A stretch of 64,000 bases of DNA from Natrialbaceae archaeon (GTDB lineage Archaea > Halobacteriota > Halobacteria > Halobacteriales > Natrialbaceae), in assembly GCA_003559215.1 (NCBI GenBank), contig PWMF01000215.1, forward strand, positions 1-64,000, read 5' to 3'. Below, in pieces: positions 9,854-53,566 of the stretch (positions are counted from its first letter, which is position 1; each line of letters begins with the position of its first letter). The notes under the pieces were generated by a model that had not been told where the DNA came from, searched no databases, and was given only the letters and a program-made list of their open reading frames with translations. A program made the translations under genes and the position numbers.

Positions 9854-11041
9854 TTACTCGAGCCCGCCCTCCTCGAGCGCTCGCATCGCGAGCCAGGCGT
9901 TCGTTAGCGGATGGTAGCCCGGCTCGACTTCGGGACCGTGGTTCGGGTCGTCGCGCTCGTGGTCGCGGGTCAGGCGCTCGTACCAGTTGCCGTACTTCGG
10001 GTTCCGGAGGTGCTCGAGCGAGTGCTCCCAGAGGCGGTCGTACCAGTCGACGTAGGCGTCGTCGTGGCGGCTCAACAGAGCGCTGGCGCCGATCGCTTCG
10101 GTGTGGACCCAGCCGTACTTGTCGGGAACGATCGGCTCGCCGTCGGCCTCGACCGTATAGTAGAGTCCGCCGTGCTCGTCGTCCCAGCCGAGGTCGACCG
10201 CGGCGTCGAACAGCTCGACGGCGCGCTCGATGAGCCACGGCTCCGAACGGTAGTCGGCCAGCAGGGCCAGCAGCTTCGCCCACTCGGCGTGGTGGCCGGG
10301 CTGGTAGCCCGGCGGACGGAACTGGTGGCGCGGCTCCTCGGCGTTGTACGAGAGATCCGGTTCCCAGTCCTCGGCGTAGTGCTCCCACAGCAGGCCGTCG
10401 GTCGCGCTCGTCACCTCCCGCGTAAAGCGGGCGGCGACGGTGTAGGCGCGCTCGAGGAACTGGTCCTCGCCGGTCGCCTCGTAGGCCGAAAGTAGCGCCT
10501 CGCAGGCGTGCATGTTCGCGTTCTGCCCGCGGTAGGGCTCGAGCTCCCAGTCGGACGTGGCCTGGTCGGCGTACAGCCCGTGTTCGGGCTCCCAGAAGCG
10601 CTCCTCGAGGACGTCGAACGCTCGCTCGAGCTCCGCTCGCCCGCCGGGGATCCCGGCCTGGTGGGCGCGTGCCCCGGCCAGCAGGGCGAACGCGTGGCCG
10701 TAGCAGTATCGGGTTCGATCGGTCGGCTCTCGACCGTCGAGCAGCCAGTCGTACCCCTCGCGGTCGGCGTCCCAGTGGGCGGTAGAGAGGAATCGCAGCC
10801 CGTGCTCGGCGGCGTACCGACACCAGTCGGGGCCGTCGGCGAGGACGCCCAGGCTGAAGTTGTGGACGCCCCGGGCGGTCGCGACGAGATGTCTCGTCTG
10901 CGAGTCGTAAACGTGGCCGTCCCGTTCGTCCAACTGAGCGACGTAGCCCCCGACCGAGGTGTCGATGCAGGCCGGATAGTAGAAGTTCAGGACGTCCCGA
11001 AACTGGTGGCGTAGCCCCGTCCGGGTCCGGTAGACGTTCAT
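9854..11041 (-). CDS. N-acylglucosamine 2-epimerase (AGE) family protein
   Basis: Start trimmed to ATG (MNVYRTRTGLRHQF); RGQNANMHACEALLSAYEAT, PGHHAEWAKLL and NPKYGNWYERL are AGE-family features. Confidence 0.88.
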   Translation of the reverse strand: MNVYRTRTGLRHQFRDVLNFYYPACIDTSVGGYVAQLDERDGHVYDSQTRHLVATARGVHNFSLGVLADGPDWCRYAAEHGLRFLSTAHWDADREGYDWLLDGREPTDRTRYCYGHAFALLAGARAHQAGIPGGRAELERAFDVLEERFWEPEHGLYADQATSDWELEPYRGQNANMHACEALLSAYEATGEDQFLERAYTVAARFTREVTSATDGLLWEHYAEDWEPDLSYNAEEPRHQFRPPGYQPGHHAEWAKLLALLADYRSEPWLIERAVELFDAAVDLGWDDEHGGLYYTVEADGEPIVPDKYGWVHTEAIGASALLSRHDDAYVDWYDRLWEHSLEHLRNPKYGNWYERLTRDHERDDPNHGPEVEPGYHPLTNAWLAMRALEEGGLE

Positions 11042-49876: not shown

Positions 49877-50382
49877 TTCCTCGTGGCATGAAGCCCGGTA
49901 ACCGTTCTAGCCACGAAACCGAGTTCGGAACTGCTCGTCGGCGTTGCTATCCGTAGTGTGAGAAGGGGGAGCAAGACCGAAGACGCGTACTGGGAGATCA
50001 GAGCGTAGCTAGTCGGTACGGTATTCGGCGTCACGATCGGCTATCCGGCGTAGGCACTCTATCCTGTCTCCTCTGACAGGTGTGTCTCTCGGCGTCCGTT
50101 ACCGACCGCTCGGAGACGTTCCCGCTACACTGATTTCGTGTGGCGGACTGGCAGTCTTCTCCGTTGCTGTCGCCTTTATTGAACACTGTATTTATGATAA
50201 TTTTAGGAACCGTGCTGAATACACAGCGGGTATCTTTCAGGAAGCCGATTGGGATTGATGGCAGTAGATCGGTCGAACAAGACAATTATGCTACTCTAAC
50301 TGATACAGGTATTTTTCCTGGCGGCAGCGGAGTGACGCGCTGCACCCCCCCGGTGAGACGGGGAATTCGCGCTGGTTTTCGC

Positions 50383-51084
50383 TCAGATTGTGAATCCCGG
50401 ATGTTCGGCGAAGGCGTTGTTGATTATGAGGTTCCCTCGGTGTTTGGCTCGTTGCTTCATCGCCGACGTGGTGCGAGCCCCTTCCGCGTAGAACCACCAC
50501 AGATACAGCGCGTTGTACATCCAAGCGCCCTGGAAATCCCAATCGGAATCGGCCCCGTCCCTCCCTTCACCGTAGATGGATCCGGGCGGGAACTCGTCGT
50601 TATGAGATTTGCCTCCCTGATGCCGTGCTTCGTGGACGAGCGTTCCTGCGCGTTCGGGAACGGTATGCTTGAAAAAGAATCCCCGATACAGTTCGACTCG
50701 ATTCTTTATGAACCAACCACGAAATGATGCAGCGATCGCTGAGCCATCGCCACACTTCGCTCTGTGCCGTGACGTGTTCTCGCGAACGTATCGACGGGCC
50801 CAGTTCAGCATCGGTGCATCCCAATCGTCGTTTCGGTAGTCTTCGGCAGAGTAGGTGAGGAGATAACACGCGTTGAACGTGCGTGCGAGGGGTTTACTGG
50901 TATCGCACGGATTTTCCCACCCGAATCCATCGTCCCAGTAGCTTTTGTTCCCCTCGAATCCGTATGTCTCCCAAAAGTAGTCAATATACGTTTGTGAGCA
51001 GATGACGTCTCCGTACAGATTGTCCCCGCTCGCGTCCTTGTCCGGTACTGTGGCGTTACAGACCGTCATGACCGATCTCTCCAC
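50383..51084 (-). CDS. putative zinc metallopeptidase with HExxHxxGxxH motif
   Basis: TLVHEARHQGGKSHND; conserved-looking WMYNALYLWWFYAEGARTTSAMKQRAKHRGNLIINNAFAEHPGF tail. Confidence 0.7.
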   Translation of the reverse strand: MERSVMTVCNATVPDKDASGDNLYGDVICSQTYIDYFWETYGFEGNKSYWDDGFGWENPCDTSKPLARTFNACYLLTYSAEDYRNDDWDAPMLNWARRYVRENTSRHRAKCGDGSAIAASFRGWFIKNRVELYRGFFFKHTVPERAGTLVHEARHQGGKSHNDEFPPGSIYGEGRDGADSDWDFQGAWMYNALYLWWFYAEGARTTSAMKQRAKHRGNLIINNAFAEHPGFTI

Positions 51085-51099
51085 TGTTCCCGTCGTCGT

Positions 51100-51825
51100 T
51101 CAGTGGCTGTGTTCGTCTTCATCTCGTGTTTCCTCGTCGTAGTCCGGAGGTGGCACAGCGTCCGTTTCTTCTGGTGCCAGATCCAGGTGACCCTGGGCCT
51201 GTGGTACGTCCTCGACGTCCGCTTTCCGAATGTCAAGCAGTGAATGATCTTTTTCGGGAAGTAACCGCTGCAGCGTCGTCTCCGCCTGGTCCCCCAGTTC
51301 TAAATACCCCTGAATCGCGGCCACCTGAATCGATCGATTGTTGTCTCGAGCGTGTTTTTCTAGTATTTTTACCGCACGATCGCTCTTCGGGGCGACTCGC
51401 GTGACCGCTCCAATAGCCGTAGTTCGAATCATAATCTCCTCACCGACCGTTGTGAAATGGTGTGTCCCCTCCGACTTCTCTTCGGGAATCTCGCTGGAAA
51501 TGACCTCGTCCAGAAAGTCTAGCGCCCGCTTGTCTTCGAGTTCGACGAGCAGTTGAATGAGCGACCAGCGCTCTATGTATCGCTCCTCGGGAAGTTGGTC
51601 ATACAGTTCTGCGACTCGCGCGACGACCTCCTCTTTATTCCGATACAGTCCATCCAGAGTGCGCTGGTACTCCTCTTCCGCCTCGGCCCCCACCGCACCC
51701 ATTGTGTGGACTGCCTCTACGATCGCCTTGTCAAGAGGAGCTTCCGAGTCGGTTTCGAACGGCTGTGAATCCCGCTCTATCTCTAACTCGTCGTCGTCGT
51801 CCTCAATCGTTGGTCTGTCACCCAT
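51100..51825 (-). CDS. HEAT-repeat-like protein
   Basis: WSLIQLLVELEDKRALDFLDEVI, IRTTAIGAVTRVAPKSDRAVKILEKHARDNNRSIQVAAIQGYLELGD. Confidence 0.75.
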   Translation of the reverse strand: MGDRPTIEDDDDELEIERDSQPFETDSEAPLDKAIVEAVHTMGAVGAEAEEEYQRTLDGLYRNKEEVVARVAELYDQLPEERYIERWSLIQLLVELEDKRALDFLDEVISSEIPEEKSEGTHHFTTVGEEIMIRTTAIGAVTRVAPKSDRAVKILEKHARDNNRSIQVAAIQGYLELGDQAETTLQRLLPEKDHSLLDIRKADVEDVPQAQGHLDLAPEETDAVPPPDYDEETRDEDEHSH

Positions 51826-52480
51826 TATCCAACCATATGAAGTTGTCGGTAGCGGAAATAATAAATCCTCGCTCGACTCATTTGAAATGTGGTAGTGTCG
51901 GTACAGTAATTGGATCGGGACGGAGAACCGGTTGACATATCTAGATTGACGAATACAACTGGCATACAGTCCAAGCCCCGTTTTAGTATCGAAAGGAATT
52001 TTGTTACAGTGAGTACAGAAAACGAACCGTCCCGTGATTACTCCTCGGGTTCCATTTGGGACAGTAACTACATCAAAGTATTCGCGTTCCTCTTAGATCT
52101 TCCCGTCAGGGACCATTGTCGTCGTCATGGTTGGAGATTTTTATCACTCGAGCAGTCGGTGAGGACCCATCGACTTCTCCATTTTGGGTGCCAACCATCT
52201 TCCGTCCACCGAGCAGAGCAGTTCGGAGACGAACCCACGACTGCATACGGAACCCCAACTATCGGTGTGAGAGCGTCCGAGCAAGGCCGGGAGAGTGCTG
52301 CTATCCAGAGGACCACGTCGTTCTCACGCGTTGTGCTGCCCTGGACGGCACGATCGGCGACGCGAGAATACGGCGGGACGACTTCCCGTCGTAACTCTAC
52401 TTTGTAGCTAAAAGCACTTAAACCGAGGACGGCGGGCCACAGCACTCGAGGCGAGCCGCTCGAGCGAAACGAGAGTCCCG

Positions 52481-53566
52481 TCACTCGTTTCGAGCGTCGA
52501 GAACGGCCAGCGCCTCCGCCATCGTGACGATCTCGAGGTCGTTCTCGAGGGCGGCCTCGATGGTGTAGCGGATTCGGTCCTCGGTGAGGGTGTCGAACTG
52601 GGAGTGGCCGCCGACGATCGCGAGGACGTCTTCGTCCGCGGCGGTTCGCATGAACGCGTCGACGTCGTCCTCGCCGGCCTTGTCGGTCTCGACGTACATT
52701 CGCCGCATCGTCGTCGGGTCGAGTCCCTCGAGGTCGTTGTGCCCGCCGCCGTAGCGGTGGTTCGCGACCGCGTCGTGGTGATCGCGAACGAGGTCCTCGG
52801 CGACGCCGTGGTACCGTCCGTAGGTGTAGACAAAGCCCGTCACGTCGAGTCCCCAGGACTCGAGCCGGTCGTCGGTCCGCTCGAGGAGCGCTTCGATAAA
52901 CGCCTCCGGATAGCGGACGTAGCCCGACGGGTCGACGGGTTCGGCGAGCGGCTCCGCGAGGTCGACGTACTCGCCGACCGAATCGCTGCCCCTGCTGGCG
53001 ACCGTCGCGGTCGTCTCGCTCTCGTCGTCGAAGATCACGAGCGGGTCGTCCTCGATGGCGCCGTGGCGATTGGCCTCGACGTAGAGACGGTCGTCGCCCG
53101 CGCGGGCGGGCTCGGTCAGTTCGATTCGGCCAAGCGACCGGTGGTGGTAGGTGTGGGACATGACGTCCCAGCCGTCGGCCTGCATCTCCCGAAGCTGATC
53201 GGGCTCGAGATAGGCGTCGCTCTCCTCCATCAGTCCCGGGCAAGCCGCGACGCAGCCGGGAACGTCGTACTCACGGTGAACGTCGTATGTGAGGGTGTAG
53301 TCCTCGACCGGACTGTCGTCGTAGGTGAACACGAGCATACCTTCGGCGTCCGCGACACGATCCCTCACCGATTCGTCGTCCTCGTCGCCGGTCGGGCCCT
53401 CGTTTGTCTCGTCGACGTTCGAATCGCCCGTCCGCTCGCCTCGCCGAGCGCGCGTCTCCCCCGATTCTCGCGTCTCCCCGGATTTCTCCTGCCCGTCGCG
53501 TGCGAGGGCGTACCCGCCCAGCGCACCTCCGCAGGCGATACCGGACAGAAACGTTCGTCGATCCAT
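52481..53566 (-). CDS. polysaccharide deacetylase-like (NodB fold) exported protein
   Basis: MDRRTFLSGIACGGALGG signal; FTYDDSPVEDY, WDVMSHTYHHRSL, GFVYTYGRYHG. Confidence 0.82.
   Translation of the reverse strand: MDRRTFLSGIACGGALGGYALARDGQEKSGETRESGETRARRGERTGDSNVDETNEGPTGDEDDESVRDRVADAEGMLVFTYDDSPVEDYTLTYDVHREYDVPGCVAACPGLMEESDAYLEPDQLREMQADGWDVMSHTYHHRSLGRIELTEPARAGDDRLYVEANRHGAIEDDPLVIFDDESETTATVASRGSDSVGEYVDLAEPLAEPVDPSGYVRYPEAFIEALLERTDDRLESWGLDVTGFVYTYGRYHGVAEDLVRDHHDAVANHRYGGGHNDLEGLDPTTMRRMYVETDKAGEDDVDAFMRTAADEDVLAIVGGHSQFDTLTEDRIRYTIEAALENDLEIVTMAEALAVLDARNE

Follow-up and report, generated by a model that had tools for sequence, protein, structure and literature searches.

Proteins with an HExxH helix mostly belong to peptidases, whose classes are recognized by what accompanies the motif. 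Metzincins carry HExxHxxGxxH/D, with the conserved glycine, a third histidine or aspartate and a Met-turn as hallmarks; in gluzincins the third zinc ligand is a glutamate in a following helix; and aspzincins (M35) combine HExxH with an aspartate ligand in GTxDxxYG. HEAT proteins, in turn, include CpcE and CpcF, which serve bilin attachment. The window analysed here, a stretch of 64,000 nt from a Natrialbaceae archaeon, encodes a HEAT-repeat protein (gene H) directly upstream of an HExxH protein (gene M), and the two form a real, undescribed and horizontally mobile gene pair. The proposal that this is an undescribed system, made from the DNA alone, has held: M matches no Pfam, NCBIfam, PADLOC or PDB family, and a literature search found no description of the H–M pair. 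Neither Pfam nor NCBIfam has a model for this family, which crosses the divide between archaea and bacteria as an autonomous two-gene cassette yet is rare. With so wide a spread and so little sequence change, such genes plausibly have a universal target or carry out a demanding reaction, and the near-frozen sequence of M in distant hosts points to a real, uncharacterised cellular system. Tests of activity, binding and knockout should be easy, since the pair is small, its proteins are soluble in most hosts, and its carriers include Paenibacillus and Amycolatopsis, which can be cultured.

The gene pair and its genomic island

Both open reading frames lie on the minus strand, H before M, where the initial annotation had placed them. 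Gene H (51100..51825) encodes 241 aa. For M, 233 aa had been read from a GTG at 51084 (50383-51084, minus strand), 15 nt 3′ of H. Because the relatives share a conserved Met-x-x-Cys at their start in the alignment, the start of M is probably the ATG at 51069 (MTVCNATVPDK...), picked by means of 22 homologues; this gives a gene of 228 codons (50383..51069, minus strand) and a gap of 30 nt between H and M. Upstream of H, an AT-rich stretch (51826..51930, minus strand) holds the TATA-like sequence GATTTATTATTTCC, read directly from the DNA as a possible archaeal promoter. Direct reading of the two window proteins also bears out the earlier statement that neither has an N-terminal signal peptide.

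H and M lie in a foreign island of ~2.25 kb (49955..52202, ends approximate), which is absent from eight congeneric genomes and whose ends were set by comparison with L043, L045 and L046. GC content is 0.55–0.56 in H and M versus 0.66–0.67 in grpE, dnaK and a deacetylase-like gene, and GC3 is 0.60–0.64 versus 0.85–0.92 in the same three genes. The description of the pair as inserted between grpE and dnaK stands insofar as both genes flank the region; it had overlooked the polysaccharide-deacetylase-like gene (52481-53566, minus strand; Tat-like N terminus, MDRRTFLSG...) that also sits between H and dnaK. As to a stress function linked to these flanks, grpE and dnaK are present in each of the eight congeneric genomes with no H–M pair at this site, and other hosts carry the pair among unrelated genes; the link to grpE/dnaK is accidental.

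The grpE–dnaK interval may be an insertion hot spot, since one congener has another insert at the same place (3.2 kb, with an 810-aa histidine-kinase-like gene by ORF reading; L042:2819-5251). The deacetylase-like gene occupies its position in only one of the eight congeners (L044). A transposon was rejected as the source of the island, at whose ends neither convincing terminal repeats nor a transposase was seen, and so was contamination. The island is resident, because its flanks match those of congeners (dnaK 86–98% and grpE 83–92% identical) and H shows the acidification typical of haloarchaea, with 26% Asp+Glu in the window versus 11–18% in relatives. Set against the acidic H, the acidity of M has changed little (13% Asp+Glu in the window versus 8–12% in relatives), and therefore constraint on M is indicated.

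The HExxH motif of M and the peptidase classes

The window M is 52–75% identical to its relatives over the full length, with a mean column identity of 81%, and ~78 columns are invariant among 16 aligned sequences. Many of these are Trp, Tyr or Gly; they also include Cys4, Cys24, Cys55, Cys106, Asp174 and His223, as well as His146, Glu147, Arg149, His150 and His156 of the motif HEARHQGGKSH (residues 146–156 of the 228-aa protein; 50602..50634, minus strand). This motif, already pointed out in the initial annotation, is the sole strict HExxHxxGxxH in the window among ~79,700 residues in open frames 100 aa or longer. The His, Glu and His of HExxH are invariant in all 23 M sequences, as expected of zincins in the broad sense, and HEARH is kept in the homologues except at the variable A/S position. 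Because His146, Glu147, His150 and His156 are invariant, M is likely an HExxH metalloenzyme; its zincin-like character is suggested mainly by the motif and the conservation of the motif.

Membership in the metzincins, which the window motif had suggested, is not supported by the alignment. The strict HExxHxxGxxH is found in 19 of the 23 sequences, and several metzincins (e.g. MMPs and 3lmc) are among the non-significant fold matches of M, but the Gly at motif position 8 is lost in L018, L019, L021 and L022. In both Thorarchaeota proteins (L018/L019) it is replaced by Cys, and in both Bacteroidota proteins (L021/L022) the H150–H156 loop, hence the spacing to the third His, is one residue shorter. 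Nor is any Met after HExxH invariant: the two proposed Met-turn candidates vary, AWM becoming AWT in L021/L022 and SAM becoming SAL in Amycolatopsis. No sequence or fold match to metzincins is significant.

Gluzincins (HtpX 3cqb, M48) share with the low-confidence model of M the strands that precede the HExxH helix, and HtpX has the highest probability among the local fold matches (0.41 over 45 columns), but the M alignment has no invariant Glu after residue 147 and M has no membrane helices, nor any strongly hydrophobic stretch. As for aspzincins, GTxDxxYG is absent from the alignment and Pfam M35 is not matched, although Asp174 is invariant. A weak match to the putative metallopeptidase DUF6782 (PF20573) covers 13 residues of M at HExxH, but its E-value of 0.2 and its score of 11 bits, where the cut-off is 27, leave M outside that family. 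Searches of Pfam, NCBIfam, PADLOC and PDB sequences gave no match to M above threshold. The AlphaFold2 model of M is poor (pLDDT 52, pTM 0.54); in it, two strands run up to the HExxH helix, which further helices follow. Foldseek found no significant match to this model (MMPs at E above 1). HExxH metallopeptidases (MMPs, HtpX 3cqb, 3lmc and 6mdx) make up about half of the 50 PDB matches listed, none of them significant, which at this model quality would indicate a zincin tendency at most.

Gene H, constant pairing and horizontal spread

The label of HEAT-repeat-like protein given to H proved accurate, for H has a genuine HEAT fold. Its AlphaFold2 model (pLDDT 80) has an ordered core (~25–205) between disordered tails, and ten helices are stacked in the antiparallel pairs of HEAT proteins. 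Alone, H gives sub-threshold HEAT matches; used as a profile, it clearly matches HEAT and alphaRep proteins (alphaRep at E 4e-24, and the HEAT proteins CpcE/F as well), and Foldseek likens the model to alphaRep and CpcE/F structures (probability about 1.0, E from 0.003 upwards). The weak NCBIfam matches of H, below curated cut-offs, are NblB and CpcF. H thus shares fold and profile matches with CpcE/CpcF, NblB and alphaRep designs, but differs from them by its fixed partner M and by conserved motifs of its own in the tails (PFxF towards the N terminus, VPQ and D..PPP towards the C terminus). It is less conserved than M, with 25–49% identity between window and relatives. Three H sequences, one from Thorarchaeota and two from Bacteroidota, start with a strongly hydrophobic helix that leads into basic residues; these three proteins would be membrane-anchored, with the HEAT domain predicted to be cytoplasmic because the basic residues come after the helix (positive-inside rule).

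When 84,980 species genomes were scanned once with the window M as query, 22 further M loci came up at 52–74% identity, a lower bound since exact peptide words were used. The hosts are Amycolatopsis (11), Rhodococcus, two Paenibacillus, Pelomonas, two acidobacterial MAGs, two Bacteroidota MAGs, one Methanothrix MAG and two Thorarchaeota MAGs. Both M and H are absent from 393 other Halobacteria genomes sampled. In profile searches, counting the seed genome each time, M occurs in 3/151 Paenibacillaceae (2%, in a sample centred on a carrier), 1/199 Actinomycetota, 1/199 Acidobacteriota, 1/148 genomes of the phylum of the Thorarchaeota, 1/188 of the class of the Bacteroidetes MAG and 1/190 of the order of Pelomonas, so that in most groups M is present in at most ~1% of the genomes sampled. 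Profile scores are all-or-none, with E either below 1e-116 or, where short chance matches are concerned, above 0.006, and therefore no intermediate paralogue family was seen in these samples. Two weak matches among the 199 Acidobacteriota genomes align at the strand plus HExxH helix and were set aside as other HExxH proteins. They are membrane proteins with a HESxH motif beside what reads like mfd (L031:1126-1794 and L032:1126-1791); no peptidase model matched them where tested, and one has a zinc-ribbon-like N terminus.

In all 22 related loci, H directly precedes M on the same strand, at 6–67 nt by the chosen starts (in L018, H is cut by the contig end), so that the recurrent pairing expected of a two-gene system is indeed observed. 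It is seen in 13 distinct genomic backgrounds including the window, in addition to L027, a further Paenibacillaceae genome that carries both genes. Conversely, H occurs in only 2 of 111 Paenibacillaceae genomes, both carriers of M. From the conservation of the pair in 22/22 loci and from the low dN/dS of M (0.007–0.15), both genes can be taken as real. For the same genome pairs, dN/dS of H is 0.07–0.23, and M has the lower value in 7/7 pairs (for M, the Paenibacillus dS of 1.5 comes close to saturation); M is under strong purifying selection.

The H–M pair has spread horizontally across archaea and bacteria. In the M tree, Pelomonas (Pseudomonadota) groups with Paenibacillus (98/95), against the species tree, and the window groups with Methanothrix (87/97), many other branches being unresolved. 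The distance matrices of M and H correlate (r 0.82, or 0.78 after removal of near-duplicates; Mantel p about 1e-4) in a test that used the first H alignment, where the row of L020 (H ORF ending at 9990) was distorted, an error corrected for the tree and not in A2. This correlation fits joint transfer of M and H; shared ancestry alone could yield the same.

When neighbouring ORFs were compared all against all, no gene besides H and M proved to be shared by the backgrounds, with few exceptions. Apart from the M6 gene described next, these are limited to the synteny of the two Paenibacillus strains and a few low-identity matches of widespread families, e.g. ABC transporters and histidine kinases; the other neighbours are ordinary and differ between hosts. 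A gene with a full M6 metallopeptidase domain (TIGR03296, E 1e-47 or better) adjoins the pair in two hosts, 22 nt downstream of M in the Methanothrix MAG (L003:10678-12573) and just upstream of H in Rhodococcus sp. RD6.2 (L020:7678-9204). The two M6 proteins are 54% identical over 491 aa, and both lack the signal peptide present in a Pseudoalteromonas plasmid homologue. M itself, unlike these neighbours, has no detectable homology to M6.

Proposed mechanism and alternatives

The favoured reading, with a probability of about 0.5, takes M as a cytosolic zincin-like peptidase and H as its dedicated HEAT adaptor or regulator; for M we infer metal binding, peptidase activity and contact with H, and for H the adaptor role. 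The two proteins would act as one functional unit that travels horizontally. In the predicted active site, carried by the HExxH helix, His146 and His150 would be metal ligands and Glu147 the base, with His156 or Asp174 as the third ligand, while the four invariant Cys would probably form a structural zinc site or disulphides. H would bind M, positioning or restraining it, and would either present substrate or, where it has the N-terminal anchor, hold M at the membrane. The constant pairing and order, the invariant catalytic-type residues and the M6 neighbour in two hosts argue for this reading; the lack of a significant sequence or fold match to any peptidase family, the low-confidence model and the shorter H150–H156 loop in two sequences, which makes the third ligand ambiguous, argue against it. 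More tentatively, M might found a new clan of HExxH metalloenzymes with a third ligand of its own, its activity switched or aimed by the co-transferred HEAT protein towards a target common to archaea and bacteria, which the near-frozen sequence of M would reflect.

The main rival, rather unlikely in our view, is that M is a non-peptidase HExxH metalloenzyme, e.g. a small-molecule or cofactor hydrolase or lyase, and H a chaperone or scaffold like CpcE/CpcF. Conservation over the whole length of M (81% mean column identity, with invariant Trp/Tyr/Gly) suits a demanding active site, and the combination of no peptidase family match for M with NblB and CpcF as weak matches for H points the same way; however, HExxH helices are mostly those of peptidases, the extra neighbour that recurs in two hosts is a metallopeptidase, and no metabolic genes recur beside the pair.

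The toxin–antitoxin or defence module offered in the initial annotation, in which M would damage the cell or an invader and the first-encoded H would restrain it, is improbable. Patchy spread across domains, a two-gene make-up with the putative inhibitor upstream and a foreign composition in the window are what such modules would lead one to expect, but the phage, plasmid and viral collections searched gave chance matches only (E of 2 or more), PADLOC found no system or family beyond a marginal HEAT match, and the neighbours are unrelated and mostly not defence genes. The would-be toxin is, moreover, nearly invariant and kept with its partner across 11 Amycolatopsis species, and a membrane-anchored H would be unusual for an antitoxin. 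One match on a Vibrio plasmid (E=2) runs across the boundary between two larger ORFs and was taken as chance.

Export by a non-classical route of leaderless enzymes such as M and its M6 neighbour, for which H would be the loading factor, is very improbable, as the missing signal peptide of the M6 proteins and the four invariant cysteines of M are outweighed by an M6 gene in only 2 of 13 backgrounds and by the absence of recurrent secretion genes beside the pair.

One Thorarchaeota contig also carries, ~2.4 kb upstream of H, a gene that combines a helix-turn-helix with an IrrE-like (Peptidase_M78) part (L019:967-2133).
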